From Puniceicoccaceae bacterium 5H (GTDB taxonomy: Bacteria > Verrucomicrobiota > Verrucomicrobiia > Opitutales > Oceanipulchritudinaceae), in NCBI GenBank assembly GCA_009772895.1, contig WOUP01000001.1, forward strand, positions 186,001 through 250,000: a stretch of DNA of 64,000 bases, written 5' to 3'. The notes below the pieces were generated by a model. It was not told the origin of the DNA and searched no databases. It saw nothing but the letters and a program-made list of their open reading frames with translations. Shown here piece after piece: positions 55,902 to 64,000 of this stretch (within the stretch, counting starts at the first letter, position 1; each line of letters opens with the position of its first letter). The position numbers and the translations under genes are program-made.

Positions 55902-57242
55902 TCAACCCCCGAGCACCGAGATGAAGTAACCGGCGGCCAACGCACTGCCGATCACGCCGGCCACATTGGGCCCCATGGCGTGAAAGAGCAGGTAGTTGGA
56001 GGAGTCGGCCTTCTGGCCTTCCACGTGGCTCACGCGGGCGGCCATCGGCACCGCACTGACGCCGGCACTGCCGATCAGCGGGTTGATCTTGTTCTTGCTG
56101 AAGACGTTCATCGCCTTCGCCATCAACACGCCGGCTGAAGTCGCGACGAGGAAGGCGACGATGCCGAGCGCCAGGATCCCGATCGTTTGGAAGTTCAGGA
56201 ACTTGTGGCTCTCCATCTTGAGGCCTACGGCTACGCCGAGGAAGATGGTGACAATGTTGATGATCTCGTTTTGGGCCGCTTTCACCAAGCGCTCCGTCAC
56301 CTGACATTCACGGAGAATGTTACCGATGAAGAGCATGCCGATCAGCGGGGCCGAACTGGGCACCACGATACAGCAGGCGGCCATCACCACGACCGCGAAC
56401 GCCAGCTTTTCGAGCTTGGATACGTTGCGCAGCTTCGTCATGCGGATCTTGCGCTCTTCCGGGCTGGTGAGCAGGCGCATGACGGGAGGCTGGATGACCG
56501 GCACGAGCGCCATGTAGGAATAGGCTGCCACGGCGATCGCCCCCAGTAGCTCGGGTGCGAGCAGGGTAGCGGTGTAGATGGAGGTGGGGCCGTCCGCACC
56601 GCCGATAATCCCGATCGCGGCCGCTTGCTTGAGGCTGAACCAGGGCGTAGCCGCCGCACCGAGGAAGGTGGCGAAAATGCCGAACTGGGCGGCGCCGCCG
56701 AGCAACAGCGTGCGCGGGTTGGCGATCAGCGGGCCGAAATCCGTCAACGCACCGACCCCGAGGAAGATAATCGGCGGGAAGAGGCCGAGCACGATCCCTT
56801 GGTTAATGTAGTAGAGCAAACCGCCCGGGGTTACGTTGTCCACCTGCTGAAACACGCGATCGCCGTCGACGACCTGCTTGAGGATGGTGAACTCGTGGTT
56901 GGGCTTCAGCTTGTGCGGCTTGGCGTTCGTTGCCTCAGCGGGAGACAGAATGTCGGCCGGCACCGCTGGATACTCATCGAGCGTATAGGTGGGGATACCC
57001 GCCTGAACCTCGCTTACCTCGACCCATTGGATCTGGCTGGCCGGAGGGCTCATGATGATCTCGGAAATCGGCAGATTGGCCAGGAGGGCGCCCATGGAGA
57101 TGGGCACCAGCAGGAGCGGCTCAAACTGCTTCGCGATGGCGAGGTAGAGGAGAACGCCCACGACAATCCACATCGCGACCATTCCCCACTCCAGACCGGT
57201 AAAACCGGTGGAATGCCAGAAATCTAGGAGAAGCTCTTGCAT
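55902..57242 (-). CDS. Na+-translocating decarboxylase beta subunit
   Basis: The 446-residue polytopic membrane protein is of the OadB/MmdB/GcdB family that couples decarboxylation of a carboxybiotin to Na+ export. Family landmarks are GLFPPIIFLGVGALTDFGPLIANPRTLLLGGAAQFGIFATFLGA, IGIIGGADGPTSIYTA, a SPEERKIRM cytoplasmic loop, and the C-terminal NPLIGSAGVSAVPMAARVSH with HAMGPNVAGVIGSALAAGYF. The loop of about 65 residues after the second membrane segment (SQIQWVEVSEVQAGIPTYTLDEYP onward) is an insertion relative to compact homologues. With the adjacent acyl-CoA carboxyltransferase, it indicates a methylmalonyl-CoA decarboxylase. Confidence 0.93.
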   Translation of the reverse strand: MQELLLDFWHSTGFTGLEWGMVAMWIVVGVLLYLAIAKQFEPLLLVPISMGALLANLPISEIIMSPPASQIQWVEVSEVQAGIPTYTLDEYPAVPADILSPAEATNAKPHKLKPNHEFTILKQVVDGDRVFQQVDNVTPGGLLYYINQGIVLGLFPPIIFLGVGALTDFGPLIANPRTLLLGGAAQFGIFATFLGAAATPWFSLKQAAAIGIIGGADGPTSIYTATLLAPELLGAIAVAAYSYMALVPVIQPPVMRLLTSPEERKIRMTKLRNVSKLEKLAFAVVVMAACCIVVPSSAPLIGMLFIGNILRECQVTERLVKAAQNEIINIVTIFLGVAVGLKMESHKFLNFQTIGILALGIVAFLVATSAGVLMAKAMNVFSKNKINPLIGSAGVSAVPMAARVSHVEGQKADSSNYLLFHAMGPNVAGVIGSALAAGYFISVLGG

Positions 57243-57260: not shown

Positions 57261-57674
57261 CTACGCAATCGTCATGAGGGATTGGCCCTCATCAACGCCA
57301 TCACCTGGCGTTACGTGCACGGCCTGGACGGTGCCCGCGTGGGGAGCCGTCACCTCGGTGTTCATCTTCATGGCTTCGAGGATCATAATGGTCTGCCCGG
57401 GCTGGACGGCGGTGCCGACCTTGGCCTCGATGCTGACCACCTTGCCCGCCAGAGGGCTGGGCACGTCTCCTGCACCCGCTGGAGCGGCGGCAGGGGCCGG
57501 TGCCGGGGCGGCGGCTGGTTGAGCGGGCGCTGCGGAAGGCGCAGGTGCCGCCGGCGTGGCAGGCGCAGCCGGGGCTGCGGGGGCATACGCGACTGCACTG
57601 CCGCCTTCTTCGATAACTTCGGCTTCGACCTCGAAGACCTTGTTGTTCAGCGTGATGCGGAACTTGCGTTTCAT
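57261..57674 (-). CDS. Biotin carboxyl carrier subunit of the decarboxylase
   Basis: The 137-residue protein has a short N-terminal segment (KRKFRITLNNKVFEVEAEVIEE), an Ala/Pro-rich flexible linker at residues 31-68, and a biotinyl domain with the site EAMKMN (biotin on Lys103). The swinging carrier moves CO2 from the carboxyltransferase to the membrane beta subunit. The layout matches MmdC and GcdC subunits. It lies 18 bases before the beta-subunit gene and 42 bases after the HicB-like fusion gene. The linker DNA is repetitive and GC-rich. Confidence 0.95.
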   Translation of the reverse strand: MKRKFRITLNNKVFEVEAEVIEEGGSAVAYAPAAPAAPATPAAPAPSAAPAQPAAAPAPAPAAAPAGAGDVPSPLAGKVVSIEAKVGTAVQPGQTIMILEAMKMNTEVTAPHAGTVQAVHVTPGDGVDEGQSLMTIA

Positions 57675-57716: not shown

Positions 57717-58169
57717 CTAACGTAGTCGATGGGAGGCGTGGATCTGTCGGCGACCCTCGCGGCTCCAGGCGGATTCCACCGGCCGAATTGAAACGATGCG
57801 GTGCTTTTGCTGATCGAGCATCATGCCTACCAAGGCAAAGATGGCGGCGGCTTCTTCTTCGGGGGTCAACCCGGCCATGGCGGCTGAACCGTGGCTGAGC
57901 GGTGCGACACTCGTGGTGGGGGCAAAGTCGGCTCCGGGCACGTGCACGGCCAGTTTTTGCCCGTTGATCTCCGGGAGCGGTTCATGAGCCCAGACCCGTT
58001 GCAGGATCCATTGCTCAAGAAGCGTTTCCAGCGAGCTGCGACATTGCTCCAGAGTGCCGGTTCGAGCCCAGACGCCGGGGCAGGTGGGAACGCTGCCGCG
58101 GATGGAGCCGTCTGCCTCCAGCTGGTAGTGCGCCTGTTCCAAGGCTGCCAGTAGGTAGGACTTCAACAT
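57717..58169 (-). CDS. HicB-antitoxin-like domain fused to a decarboxylase gamma-subunit tail
   Basis: The 150-residue protein has two recognisable parts. Residues 1-76 (MLKSYLLAALEQAHYQLEADG, then CPGVWARTGTLEQCRSSLETLLEQWI and PLPEINGQKL) match the HicB-like family seen in type II toxin-antitoxin systems. Residues 99-150 repeat the C-terminal tail of the upstream gamma subunit (HRIVSIR, WSREGRRQ, HASHR). No HicA toxin gene is adjacent. It starts 10 bases after the gamma-subunit stop and precedes the biotin carrier gene, so it is embedded in the decarboxylase operon. I used the ATG at 58169, because the frame upstream overlaps the gamma gene. The inferred role is an accessory subunit docking on the carboxyltransferase; there is no direct evidence. 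Confidence 0.72.
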   Translation of the reverse strand: MLKSYLLAALEQAHYQLEADGSIRGSVPTCPGVWARTGTLEQCRSSLETLLEQWILQRVWAHEPLPEINGQKLAVHVPGADFAPTTSVAPLSHGSAAMAGLTPEEEAAAIFALVGMMLDQQKHRIVSIRPVESAWSREGRRQIHASHRLR

Positions 58170-58179
58170 GGTGAATGAA

Positions 58180-58539
58180 TCAGCGTATGCGGTGCGAGGC
58201 GTGGTGCTGACGGCGCCCTTCACGACTCCAGTCAGTGCCGCGCTGGCGGATCGAGACGATCCGGTGGGCGCGTTCGTCCAGGAGCATCGCCACTACGGCG
58301 GCAATGACGGCCATCTCGTCTGTTTCGTCCGAGGCTGCCGGAGCGGCCGCTGCTGCTTGCGGGGCCGCTGCGACCGGCTGGGCGGTTTTCGCAACGGCTG
58401 CTTTGGGCTTGGGCAGGATCATGCCGATCACGTCGGTCAAGACCCAGAGGCCGATAAGCACCACGAGCACGATCGCGAAGCCGATCAGGTGCGGGACGGA
58501 GTCAGATAAGGTAGCTACTGCAAGGATGGGAAGTTGCAT
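58180..58539 (-). CDS. Na+-translocating decarboxylase gamma subunit (OadG-like)
   Basis: The 119-residue protein has one N-terminal membrane segment (HLIGFAIVLVVLIGLWVLTDVIG), an Ala/Pro-rich linker at about residues 45-70, and a conserved soluble tail (MAVIAAVVAMLLDERAHRIVSIR, WSREGRRQ). This is the architecture of OadG/MmdD gamma or delta subunits, which anchor the carboxyltransferase to the membrane beta subunit. The tail is duplicated in the next gene. It lies 99 bases after the carboxyltransferase gene, the longest gap in this operon. Confidence 0.87.
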   Translation of the reverse strand: MQLPILAVATLSDSVPHLIGFAIVLVVLIGLWVLTDVIGMILPKPKAAVAKTAQPVAAAPQAAAAAPAASDETDEMAVIAAVVAMLLDERAHRIVSIRQRGTDWSREGRRQHHASHRIR

Positions 58540-58638: not shown

Positions 58639-60195
58639 TTAGAGCGGGATGTTACCGTGCTTCTTGGGCGGACGCGTTTCGCGCTTGCTCAGCAGGGTGC
58701 GCAGGCCGAGGGAAACGGCGCCGCGGGTCTGCGACGGCTTGATCACGTCGGTGATCAGCGCGTTGGCGGCGGCCTGATACGGGCTGGCGAACATGTCGTG
58801 GTATTCGCTCACCAGTTCCTGCAGGCGGGCGTCCGGATCTTCGGCGTCCTTCAGCTCCTTGCCAAAGATCACCTTCACGGCACCCTCGGCACCCATCACG
58901 GCGATTTCGGCGGTCGGCCAGGCAAAGACGAGGTCGGCACCCAGGTCGCTCGAGCACATGGCGAGGTAAGCGCCACCGTAGGCCTTGCGCATGATGACGG
59001 TGATTTTGGGGACCGTCGATGCCGCGTAGGCAAAGAGCATCTTGGCACCGTGGCGGATGATGCCGCCGCGCTCTTCCTTCAGGCCGGGGAAGAAGCCGGG
59101 CACGTCCACCAGCGTCACGATCGGGATCTGGTAGATGTTGCAGACGCGGACGAAGCGGGCACCCTTGTCGGAAGCATCGATGTCGAGGCAGCCGGCCTTG
59201 ACCTTGGGCTGATTGGCCACCACGCCGACGACGCAGCCGTCGATGCGCGCAAAACCGGTCACAAGGTTAGCCGCAAAGGTCGGCATGATTTCGAAGAAGC
59301 TGCCTTCGTCCACCATCTTGTTGATGACAGTGTGGACGTCGAACGGGGCCTTCTGGTTTTCCGGCACGACCTCGTTCAGCTCTTCGATCTCGTCCATGCT
59401 GACCTGTTCGGTCAGTTGGTGGGGCGGATCGTCGAGGTTGTTCGACGGCAGGTAGCTCATCAGCTGCTGGGCGAGCTCCACCGCGTGCTTGTCGTCGCGG
59501 GCCGACATGTGGATGTTGCCGGAGACCGAGGCCTGGGCTTGCGCCGTAGCAAACTGGTCGAGGCGGGCGTTCTCGCCAGTGGCACTCTTGATCACCTGCG
59601 GGCCGCAGATAAACATGTTGGTGCACTCGTTTTCCACCATGATGAGGAAGTCCGTCAGGGCGGGCGAGTAGGCGGCACCGCCCGCGCAGGGGCCGGCGAT
59701 GATGGCGATCTGCGGCACGAGACCGGAAGCGGCCACGTTGCGGAAGAAGATTTGGCCGTAGCCGGAAAGCGAGTCGACGCCTTCCTGGATCCGGGCTCCG
59801 CCGGAGTCATTGATGCCGACGACGGGCATGCCGGCCTTCATGGCGAAGTCCATCAGGTCGCACACCTTCTTGGCGTGGATGCGGCCGAGGGCGCCACCGC
59901 CGACGGTGAAGTCGTGGGCAAAGGCTGCGACCGGGCGACCGTTCACATAGCCGGTGCCGGTGACGACGCCATCGGAGGGCATCTTCTTGTCGGCCAGGCC
60001 AAAGCCGGTGCAGGCGTGCTGGGCGTGCATGCCGAACTCCTGGAAGGTATCGGCATCAAAGAGGGCGGCAAGACGTTCGCGCGCCGTCATCTGCCCTTTG
60101 GCATGGCGCTTTTCGATCTTGTTTTCACCCCCACCCAGTTCGGCTTCGCGCCGCCGGGCTTCCAGGGTTTCCATCAATTTCGGGTCGATGGGCAT
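58639..60195 (-). CDS. mmdA: Methylmalonyl-CoA decarboxylase carboxyltransferase subunit
   Basis: The 518-residue protein is an acyl-CoA carboxyltransferase (crotonase fold, twin domains) like MmdA or the beta chain of propionyl-CoA carboxylase. Key segments are the N-terminal oxyanion region GGGALGRIHAKKVCDLMDFAMKAGMPVVGINDSGGARIQEG, IAGPCAGGAAYSPALTDF, and in the second half VDVPGFFPGLKEERGGIIRHGAKMLFAYA and KAYGGAYLAMCSSDLGAD. It transfers the carboxyl group of (S)-methylmalonyl-CoA to biotin. No biotin carboxylase gene is in the operon, and a Na+-pump beta subunit is present, so decarboxylation rather than ATP-driven carboxylation is inferred. Confidence 0.93.
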   Translation of the reverse strand: MPIDPKLMETLEARRREAELGGGENKIEKRHAKGQMTARERLAALFDADTFQEFGMHAQHACTGFGLADKKMPSDGVVTGTGYVNGRPVAAFAHDFTVGGGALGRIHAKKVCDLMDFAMKAGMPVVGINDSGGARIQEGVDSLSGYGQIFFRNVAASGLVPQIAIIAGPCAGGAAYSPALTDFLIMVENECTNMFICGPQVIKSATGENARLDQFATAQAQASVSGNIHMSARDDKHAVELAQQLMSYLPSNNLDDPPHQLTEQVSMDEIEELNEVVPENQKAPFDVHTVINKMVDEGSFFEIMPTFAANLVTGFARIDGCVVGVVANQPKVKAGCLDIDASDKGARFVRVCNIYQIPIVTLVDVPGFFPGLKEERGGIIRHGAKMLFAYAASTVPKITVIMRKAYGGAYLAMCSSDLGADLVFAWPTAEIAVMGAEGAVKVIFGKELKDAEDPDARLQELVSEYHDMFASPYQAAANALITDVIKPSQTRGAVSLGLRTLLSKRETRPPKKHGNIPL

Positions 60196-60250: not shown

Positions 60251-60655
60251 TTAGCTCTTGGGCATGCAGAGTTCGGTCAGGACGCCGTGGGTGCTCTTGG
60301 GGTGCAGGAACGCCACCAGCTTGTTGGCCGCGCCTTCAAAGGGCACTTCGTGGATCAGGCGGGCGCCGGAGCCCTTGGCGTGGGCCAGTTGCCCTTCGAT
60401 GTCGTTCGTCCCGAAGGCGATATGGTGGATGCCTTCGCCCCGGCTTTCGAGGAACTTGGCGATCGGGCTCTCCGGATCTGTGGGCTCCAACAGCTCAATG
60501 TGGACTTCGCCCACGTGGAAGAAAGCAGTGCGAACCTTTTGCGAGGCCACTTCTTCCTTGCCTTCACAATGGAGGCCCAGGGTGTTTTCGTAGTAGGCTA
60601 CGACCTCGTCCAGGTCTTTTACCGCGATTCCGATATGGTCGATTTGAGTAATCAT
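60251..60655 (-). CDS. mce: Methylmalonyl-CoA epimerase
   Basis: The 134-residue vicinal-oxygen-chelate protein interconverts (R)- and (S)-methylmalonyl-CoA. It starts with ITQIDHIGIAVKDLDEVVAYYENTLGL, giving a His metal ligand near residue 7. It continues with VRTAFFHVGEVHIELLEPT, SRGEGIHHIAFGTNDIEGQL and a final HGVLTELCM, which supply the remaining metal and catalytic residues. The length is standard. It is the first gene of the decarboxylase operon and divergent from mutA, so mutase, epimerase and decarboxylase steps are all side by side. Confidence 0.96.
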   Translation of the reverse strand: MITQIDHIGIAVKDLDEVVAYYENTLGLHCEGKEEVASQKVRTAFFHVGEVHIELLEPTDPESPIAKFLESRGEGIHHIAFGTNDIEGQLAHAKGSGARLIHEVPFEGAANKLVAFLHPKSTHGVLTELCMPKS

Positions 60656-61005: not shown

Positions 61006-63150
61006 ATGGCAAAAGACGTAGAGCAAACCGAGTCCCAGAACCCACGCCTTTTGGAGGAGTTCTCTCCCCACACCTACGAACAATGGAAGGAAGCCGCTGA
61101 CAAGCTGCTGAAAGGCGCTCCGTTCGAAAAGGTCATGATCACGCCGACTTACGAAGGCTTTGATCTGCAGCCCCTCTATACGTATGAGCATGCGAAAAAG
61201 CTCGTGCAATGGGGCGACGACCTGCCCGGCAAGGGCACGAAGGTGCGCGGCGGCAGCAACGGCGGCTACCGCCAACAACCCTGGTGGATTTCGCAGGAGC
61301 TGACCCTCGCCACCCCGAAGGAGTTCAACACGATCGCCCGCCACGAGCTGGAAAACGGGCAGAACGAGTTGAACGTCTGGCTCGACAAGCCGGGCCGCGA
61401 CGGGGTTGATCCCGACGACTCCTGCGCGGAGAGCGTCGGCGTATGCGGCACGTCCCTCGTGGGCGTGAGCGATCTGGCGCAAATGTTCAACGGGGTCTAC
61501 CTCAATTACATTTCCGTCTACTGGCGCGCGGGCCTCAGCCCGGTGGCCCTGGCCGGTCTTTACTTCGCTTATGCGGAGCGCGCGGGCATCGACCCGAAAG
61601 ACCTCAAGGGCTGCATCGAGGCCGATCCGATCGGCTTCCTCGCCGAAAACGGTCGTCTGCCCTTTGAATTGAGCCACGCCTACGACGAGATGGCGGCGCT
61701 CACGGCCTATGTGGCGGACAATGCCCCGGCCCTGCAGTCCATCGGGGTGCAAACGCACGTCTATCATAATGCGGGCGGCGCCTCCCACCAGGAGATGGCT
61801 TTTGCCCTCGCCACCGGCGTTGAATACCTGCGTGCTATGCAGGCTCGCGGCCTGAAGGCTGAAAAGGTAGCCCCGCGCATGCGTTTCAGCATGTCGATTG
61901 GCCCCAACTACTTTATCGAGATCGCGAAGTTCCGGGCCATGCGCATGCTCTGGAACAAGGTGTTGGAAGGTTTCGAGGTGCCGGAAGCGGCCCGCGATAT
62001 CTATTTGCACGCCCGCACCGGTCTCTGGAACAAGACCAAGACCGACCCCTACGTCAACATGCTGCGCACCTGCACCGAGGGCTTCAGCGCCGTCGTCGCG
62101 GGCGTGAACGGGCTGACGGTCGGGGCGTTCGACGAGATCATCCGCGAGCCGGATGCCTTCTCGCGCCGCGTTTCCCGCAACCTGCACCACATTCTGGCCG
62201 AAGAGTGCGACCTCACGAAGGTGATCGACCCGGCCGGTGGTTCCTGGGCGGTGGAAAGCCTCACCGAGCAAATGGCCGAGAGCGCCTGGAAGCTGTTCCA
62301 GGAAATTGAAACGGCTGGCGGCATGGTCCAGGCCCTGCGCGACGGCTTCCCGCAGATCAAGACGCAGGAAGTGCTCGCCCAGAAGATGAAAAAGATCCAC
62401 CAGCGCCGCGACGTGATTGTGGGGACGAACAATTACCCCAATCCGATCGAGAAGGCGCTCGAGCCGCGCAACATCGATTACAAGGCCACCGCCGACGAGC
62501 GCTCCAACGCCGCCAAGAAGGCGCGGGAGCAGGCCGTGAAAGGTGGCACCCACAGTGCGTTGCAGTGCCTCAGTCAGGCCGATCCGGTCGCCGACCCAGG
62601 CGTGGTCGTAGCGGCGGTTGCCGCAGCCAAGGCAGGCATGACGCTCGGCCAGATCAACGCTGCCTTACGCGAAAACAAGTCGGGTAGCGAACAGGTCGAG
62701 CCGCTGAAGATGCAGCGTGCCAGTGAGACTTACGAAACCCTGCGGGCGGAAGCCGAAGCACTGGGGGACAAGGCCCGTATCCTGCAAGTCAACTTCGGCC
62801 CCAGCCGCCGCTACCGTGGACGGGCCGACTGGACGAGCGCCTTCTTCCGCGTGGGTGGCTTCCAGGTCCTCTCCGACACCGACTTCAACACGGTCGAGGA
62901 AGCCGTGGCCGCCGCCAACGAATCGCAGGCGCCGATCGCGGTCATTACCTCCGACGACCAGACCTACGCCGAATCCGCGGTAGAGCTCGCCAAGGCCCTC
63001 AAGCAGGCCCGCCCGAGCCTTTACCTGATCCTCGCCGGTGCGCCGGGCGACAATGAAGCCGCCTTCAAGGAAGCCGGGGTCGATACCTTCGTGCACGTCC
63101 GCGTGAACAACTACGAGATGAACCAACAACTGGTGCAACGCCTCAAGTAG
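61006..63150 (+). CDS. mutA: Methylmalonyl-CoA mutase small subunit
   Basis: The 714-residue protein resembles the catalytically inactive small subunit of heterodimeric methylmalonyl-CoA mutase. A barrel domain covers most of the length ([95 protein letters not shown]). The C-terminal cobalamin-like domain lacks the DxHxxG motif; the equivalent stretch reads [14 protein letters not shown]. This is expected for the small subunit, which supports the B12-carrying MutB. It is followed after five bases by mutB, and the pair is divergent from the epimerase and decarboxylase operon. Confidence 0.95.
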
Positions 63151-63155
63151 TAGCC

Positions 63156-64000
63156 ATGATTTCTCCTGATTTTAAGACGATCGACTGGAAACCGGCCGCC
63201 AGCCAGCCCACCCAGACCTATGGTGAGTGGAAGGCAGACCTGGAAAAACGCACGGGCCAAGACGCCGAGGAACTGGTCTGGCAGACGATGGAGCAGATCC
63301 CCGTCGAGCCGCTCTATACCAGCAATGCCTACGAGGGCATGGAGCACCTCGAGTATCAGGCCGGTATCGCACCGTTCTTGCGCGGGCCGTATGCCACGAT
63401 GTATGTGTTCCGCCCTTGGACGGTGCGCCAATACGCCGGCTTCTCCACGGCGGAAGAGTCCAACGCGTTTTATCGCCGCAACTTGGCCGCTGGTCAAAAG
63501 GGCCTCTCCGTAGCCTTCGACCTGGCGACGCACCGCGGCTATGACAGCGATCACAAGCGCGTGGTCGGGGACGTCGGCAAGGCCGGGGTGGCGATCGACT
63601 CGATCCTGGATATGCAGATCCTGTTCGACCGCATCCCGCTGGACAAGGTGTCCGTCTCCATGACGATGAACGGTGCGGTATTGCCGATCATGGCCTTCTA
63701 CATCGTCGCGGCCCTGGAGCAGGGCGCGAAGCTGGAAGACCTCAGCGGCACGATCCAGAATGACATCCTGAAGGAATACATGGTGCGGAATACCTACATC
63801 TATCCGCCCGAACCTTCGATGCGCATCATCGCGGATATCTTCGAGTTCACGTCGCAGAACATGCCGAAGTTCAACTCGATCTCGATCTCCGGCTACCACA
63901 TGCAGGAAGCGGGTGCGACGGCCGACCTCGAGATGGCCTACACCCTGGCCGACGGTCTCGAGTATCTCCGCACGGGTATCCAGGCCGGCATCGATGTCGA
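63156..64000 (+). CDS. mutB: Methylmalonyl-CoA mutase large subunit, 3' end cut by window
   Basis: The first 281 residues are visible with no stop before the window edge. They contain the substrate-binding segment [62 protein letters not shown] near residue 70. [62 protein letters not shown] and [16 protein letters not shown] follow. These are catalytic-barrel hallmarks of the active, adenosylcobalamin-dependent subunit that interconverts succinyl-CoA and (R)-methylmalonyl-CoA. The cobalamin domain would lie beyond the window. It starts five bases after mutA. Confidence 0.97.

Follow-up and report, generated by a model that had tools for sequence, protein, structure and literature searches.

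In oxaloacetate decarboxylase (OAD), a relative of the enzyme discussed here, the cytoplasmic tail of the gamma subunit is bound to alpha, and when the tail is taken away the amount of alpha on the beta-gamma part falls severely; methylmalonyl-CoA and glutaconyl-CoA decarboxylases carry a homologous scaffolding delta subunit (both from passages of PMC7274780). In glutaconyl-CoA decarboxylase, the C-terminal region of GcdD perhaps lends stability to the complex (from a passage of PMC7145394), and the Veillonella delta subunit is described as indispensable for complex formation in a section of PMC11575231, where a 50-aa hypothetical gene is also placed between mmdA and mmdC of Xylanibacter. Small HicB proteins without a DNA-binding domain, encoded upstream of hicA, are treated as the Class 2 arrangement in a portion of PMC10865869.

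The window analysed here, a stretch of 64,000 nucleotides from Puniceicoccaceae bacterium 5H, encodes a 150-aa protein, P0001 (57717..58169, at the coordinates given in the earlier note and on the minus strand, which the note had left unstated), which consists of a HicB-like domain, a linker and a tail of the MmdD/OadG type, and which we propose to be an epsilon-like decarboxylase subunit. The subunit to which it is likened comes from Veillonella, where the gene order is reported to be mmdA-D-E-C-B (Huder and Dimroth, 1993 and 1995); there the epsilon subunit MmdE reportedly consists of a tail alone, about 55 aa long and with homology to the C-terminal end of MmdD, and adds to stability. P0001 and MmdE, as described for Veillonella, share the slot between mmdD and mmdC, solubility and an MmdD-type C-terminal tail. 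Unlike MmdE, P0001 carries an added HicB domain and, at 150 aa, is nearly three times as long. P0001 is thus called epsilon-like, not a plain MmdE.

Operon context of P0001

P0001 is the fourth gene in a minus-strand run ordered mce-like, mmdA, oadG/mmdD, P0001, mmdC and mmdB, with successive gaps of 55, 99, 10, 42 and 18 nt. The run opens with the mce-like gene (60251..60655), a methylmalonyl-CoA epimerase by name as read from the translation, and continues with the carboxyltransferase gene mmdA (58639..60195; 518 aa; PF01039, E 1.6e-179), which has the PDB relatives 1vrg and 1on3. The product of oadG/mmdD (58180..58539; 119 aa; PF04277, E 1.9e-9) comprises one hydrophobic (membrane) stretch, a linker and a tail; it matches the NF047902 MmdD model at E 1.9e-9, but its 37.7 bits fall short of the cut-off, which is 150. 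Downstream of P0001 lie the biotin carrier gene mmdC (57261..57674; 137 aa; PF00364, E 1e-17) and mmdB/oadB (55902..57242; 446 aa; PF03977, E 6.4e-150), encoding the Na+-transporting decarboxylase subunit. The setting inside a decarboxylase operon, read from the letters in the earlier note, is thus confirmed by Pfam through carboxyltransferase, OAD_gamma, biotin carrier and OAD_beta neighbours. Upstream of the run and divergent from it are mutA-mutB-like genes (methylmalonyl-CoA mutase; 61006..63998, plus strand), likewise named from their translations, the second of which is cut by the window end. From the neighbouring genes we infer that the decarboxylase substrate is methylmalonyl-CoA.

The stop codon of oadG and the ATG of P0001 are 10 nt apart, a spacing that suggests coupled translation. 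The genome has one OAD_beta match, which is mmdB/oadB itself, and its only MmdA-related sequence besides mmdA is a partial match at 31%. With a single OAD_beta and a single close MmdA, there is one complex for P0001 to join.

HicB-like domain, linker and tail

Residues 1-76 (57942..58169, minus strand) form a UPF0150/HicB-like domain. The UPF0150 profile PF21748 matches residues 5-66 over profile positions 2-64 of 64, at E 2e-18 and with 66.5 bits where 27.3 is the cut-off, which upholds the HicB-like identity proposed in the earlier note and rules out a chance likeness of this part to HicB. A profile of the two orthologues, P0001 and its counterpart in the related genome G001, retrieved the structure 2dsy of the Thermus HicB-like protein TTHA0281 from PDB sequences at E 5e-8. 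The domain is 36-45% identical to five unfused HicB proteins, and 17 positions are invariant across P0001, the G001 orthologue and five unfused HicBs (those of loci L086 and L088 being left out). Its net charge is -2, versus -4 to -14 in the six unfused HicBs compared; this lower acidity is a hint, drawn from few sequences, that HicA binding is no longer selected. The single-sequence structure model of P0001 has a pLDDT of 42.6, too poor to judge the partial RNase H fold.

The linker, residues 77-100 (57870..57941, minus strand), consists of A, P, S, T or G at 17 of 24 positions and is the fastest-changing part of the protein. Residues 101-150 (57720..57869, minus strand), ending W-SREGRR-x4-SHRLR, are homologous to the OadG/MmdD tail by own-genome search and alignment. 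Searching the genome with P0001 at E <= 0.001 returned only P0001 itself and the adjacent oadG tail, the latter at E 2.1e-13 and 52% over residues 83-150. Identity to OadG is about 59% over the last 49 residues, so that the kinship with the gamma tail put forward for residues 99-150 stands as homology, not as an exact copy. Nor was a Pfam match of the tail to the OadG family obtained: P0001 has no match to the OAD_gamma (PF04277), oadG_fam or MmdD (NF047902) profiles at E <= 10. Against PDB sequences the tail had no match, and OadG gave chance-level matches only. P0001 and OadG/MmdD share the W-x-x-EGRR...SH tail motif after an Ala/Pro-rich linker; P0001 differs from them in having no membrane helix, its highest 19-residue hydropathy being 1.07 versus 2.64 for OadG. 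With neither the helix nor a profile match, P0001 is not itself an OadG/MmdD.

The relation between the two tails was examined in a tree of 43 tails, gathered by the tail-motif pattern and hence not an independent measure of motif conservation; 44 had been collected, two of them identical over the 49 residues used, and off-pattern tails (for example, those of G019, G012, G014 and G015) were left out. The two fusion tails group together, as do the two OadG tails of the same genus, each of these clades being well supported. These clades sit in a loosely supported group with most family tails, within which 50 columns do not settle the deeper branching. Because the fusion tails and the OadG tails of the genus fall into separate clades, the tail copy is older than the split between the two species. 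A recent copy of the tail from the neighbouring oadG is unsupported by this tree.

Distribution of the fusion and HicA neighbours of its relatives

The orthologue in G001 is 75% identical to P0001 over 150 positions, is 148 aa long from the matching ATG and has the same neighbours, so that the order mmdA-oadG-P0001-mmdC-mmdB, whose absence from any related genome would, by the earlier note, have refuted its interpretation, is common to the window and G001. The fusion is real and conserved in the genus, of which G001 is the only other genome in the relatives and order searches. A frame error or a wrong merger of neighbouring genes was ruled out, as G001 reads alike at near-equal length. Nei-Gojobori omega between the two orthologues is lowest in residues 1-76 (0.07), higher in the tail (0.15) and highest in the linker (0.25, on 22 codons), values that are rough given dS of 1.6, 1.0 and 3.2, respectively; judged by this codon comparison, both domains of P0001 are under purifying selection.

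Full-length matches to P0001 numbered 2 among 55 relatives and 2 among 372 genomes of the order; the samples of the phylum (387 genomes) and of the class (384 genomes) contained 1 each. These samples overlap, the matching genomes were always G000 and G001, and in the phylum and class samples the matching genomes listed did not include G001. Among 14 other genomes in which an mmd operon was inspected, 10 have the ordinary order with mmdC directly after oadG (L071-L078, L081 and L085), and the remaining 4 are arranged otherwise and have no fusion: G142, G175 and G310 encode two OadG and two OadB proteins, and G239 a tail-only protein. Genome contigs searched with P0001 and the two-sequence alignment, and viral contigs searched with a plasmid HicB and P0001, yielded no relatives, at a reach limited to close ones. 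Among plasmids, two records matched, with a coverage of P0001 of 46-50%. PADLOC assigned neither P0001 nor the two HicA-like neighbours put to it to a defence system, and P0001 had no match among PHROGs phage families.

In G239, the tail-only protein (L069, frame 2157-2406) is encoded after mmdA and mmdC and is 55 aa long from its ATG, or 83 aa from stop to stop. It resembles P0001 in being soluble, in carrying an MmdD-type tail and in lying near mmdA and mmdC, and differs in having no HicB domain and in belonging to a genome, rated 99% complete, in which no OAD_beta match was found. With no pump subunit found, the tail would serve soluble subunits there, a hint that it docks on the carboxyltransferase/biotin-carrier side. 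We note that this frame precedes birA-like and oadA-like frames, named by eye, and that the locus may be a non-pumping decarboxylase or transcarboxylase.

Two further features of these operons were observed. In G142 (L066), G175 (L067) and G310 (L068), a single operon holds two OadG-type and two OadB-type genes in the order mmdA, first OadG, mmdC, a divergent OadB, second OadG and an ordinary OadB. The first OadG carries the tail variant QQWSxEGRRQIYSSH, the divergent OadB is 30-34% identical to the OadB of the window, and the whole is possibly a two-pump or hetero-oligomeric version. The OadB proteins also vary in an insert, which is 81 aa in the window (about residues 59-139), 83 aa in G001, and 13-28 aa in 9 and 133-134 aa in 2 of 11 other pattern-matched family genomes, so that a genus-specific insert length co-occurs with P0001. 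Many order relatives have an insert of 128-143 aa; the only one tested, in the OadB of L077 (L077:2854-4335), matches Biotin_lipoyl at 4.1e-5, and by eye the others resemble it.

A HicA or HicA-like gene lies directly downstream in all seven of the closest unfused relatives of the N domain examined (L079, L082, L083, L086, L088 and the plasmid proteins in L097 and L098). Two of the seven are annotated as HicB/HicA pairs. The downstream HicA is above the Pfam cut-off in L086 and L088 and below it in L082 and L083 (0.0022 and 0.15, respectively), the L082 gene also having a PHROGs match, to a 'toxin' family (0.007). The seventh, in L079, is a broken HicA-like frame. That frame, around L079 1440-1610 in G024, follows an intact HicB and stands beside restriction-modification-like genes (by eye), an observation that may represent a hicBA module losing its toxin. 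Since the seven closest unfused relatives adjoin a HicA or HicA-like gene, the N domain most likely descends from a toxin-paired, Class-2-type HicB; these neighbourhoods and that of L080 are the ones covered, further N-domain-only places and weaker PF21748 matches lying outside the set.

P0001 itself is flanked by oadG and mmdC, with no HicA beside it, and no HicA exceeds the Pfam cut-off anywhere in its genome (best 17.9 bits), in agreement with the earlier note, which had reported no HicA gene. The idea of a repurposed HicB, also raised there, is strengthened by the contrast between the unfused relatives, with their adjoining HicA or HicA-like genes, and the fused proteins, which have none. 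However, G001 encodes one HicA above the cut-off, on contig C9, its mmd operon being on C12, and this counts against a simple story in which the toxin was lost everywhere. The genome of the window also encodes a second, unfused and more distant HicB-family protein of 69 aa (L080:4243-4452, contig C10), beside which no HicA was found; the absence of an adjoining HicA is thus not special to the fusion. Compared with the Class 1/2 HicB antitoxins, which according to PMC10865869 are small and lack a DNA-binding domain, and with UPF0150 proteins such as TTHA0281, P0001 shares the nearly full-length UPF0150 match, and differs in having no adjoining HicA, in carrying a decarboxylase docking tail and in lying in a metabolic operon. 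It is not a HicAB system, as it has no adjoining HicA.

Proposed role and alternatives

We consider it probable that the Na+-pumping methylmalonyl-CoA decarboxylase has in P0001 an additional, soluble subunit of the epsilon-like kind. The delta-type C-terminal tail of P0001, as in OadG/MmdD, would dock on the carboxyltransferase/biotin-carrier part; both this docking and the status of P0001 as a subunit are predictions. Of the roles suggested in the earlier note, this reading favours the accessory subunit docked on the carboxyltransferase over a pure regulator. The N domain would be an antitoxin domain of the HicB family, taken over from a Class-2-type hicBA module, with HicA no longer beside it, and the flexible linker would display it on the complex. 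Being a protein-binding fold, the HicB domain might join copies of P0001 and in this way clamp or stabilise neighbouring carboxyltransferase assemblies. Such clamping by self-association is a conjecture and our first guess, one that, even granting the epsilon-like-subunit reading, we would expect to prove wrong rather than right. In MmdA, Pfam detected carboxyltransferase-type matches and one weak chance match, and no OadA-type association domain; as that domain is the reported target of the OAD gamma tail on OadA, the OAD docking model transfers only in part.

Each half of P0001 is of a known kind, and a second-tail subunit has a precedent in MmdE; what is new is the HicB domain in this combination. 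The earlier note knew of no described protein with this architecture. As to the combination this holds among the matches listed from the open-licence literature, where a HicB domain with an MmdD tail is absent; as to a second tail it does not, MmdE being a precedent. The word 'mmdE' brought up unrelated titles among the matches listed there, and within the open-licence literature HicB and methylmalonyl-CoA are mentioned together only in a Propionibacterium acnes genomics paper.

For the action of the HicB domain, our guesses run from the clamp, through a decoy or switch, to a toxin sink. As a decoy, the anchorless P0001 would compete with delta and free carboxyltransferase and biotin carrier for a soluble, non-pumping transcarboxylase pool. 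The tail has no membrane helix, as this would demand, and G239 encodes a soluble tail-only protein beside mmdA-mmdC with OAD_beta not found, but the case of G239 is indirect and comes from one genome only, and a competitor encoded 10 nt after oadG, and so made together with it, would be odd. We regard the decoy as unlikely, and as decidedly unlikely the more specific version in which a ligand of the HicB domain (a HicA-like protein of dsRNA-binding fold or another) decides whether the carboxyltransferase works in the Na+ pump or in a soluble transcarboxylase that does not pump, the tail competing with the membrane anchor. It seems very unlikely that the HicB domain has kept its binding to HicA-type toxins and makes of the complex an immunity scaffold against incoming or residual hicBA modules. 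Such a sink would suit a domain that is complete and strongly conserved, whose close relatives are HicA-partnered, and the one HicA elsewhere in G001; yet the genome of the window has no HicA above cut-off, the N domain is less acidic than the six unfused HicBs (a comparison of few sequences), and the sink gives no reason for siting the domain on a decarboxylase.

P0001 could be functionless debris of an insertion that brought a HicB gene together with a duplicated oadG tail, and the separate origin of N domain and tail and the restriction of the fusion to one genus, as far as seen, are what this would produce. We hold it highly improbable, since the purifying selection read from omega of 0.07 and 0.15 (at dS 1.6 and 1.0) disfavours it, and the frame is open and in the same place in both species. 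That P0001 is a transcriptional autoregulator of its operon seems scarcely credible. HicBs with a DNA-binding domain do autorepress their operon according to a section of PMC10865869, but the DNA-binding part there is a separate HTH or RHH domain, in place of which P0001 has the MmdD-type tail, and Pfam finds no DNA-binding domain of these or other kinds in P0001 at E <= 10.

On the epsilon-like-subunit reading, P0001 would be a case of an antitoxin domain that no longer adjoins its toxin and has been wired into core energy metabolism by a portable docking tail. The occurrence of the MmdD-type tail with a membrane helix in MmdD, with nothing in G239 and with a HicB domain in P0001 suggests that it acts as a carrier module. 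What the second small subunit does in decarboxylase sodium pumps, a poorly understood matter, would thereby become directly testable by domain removal.
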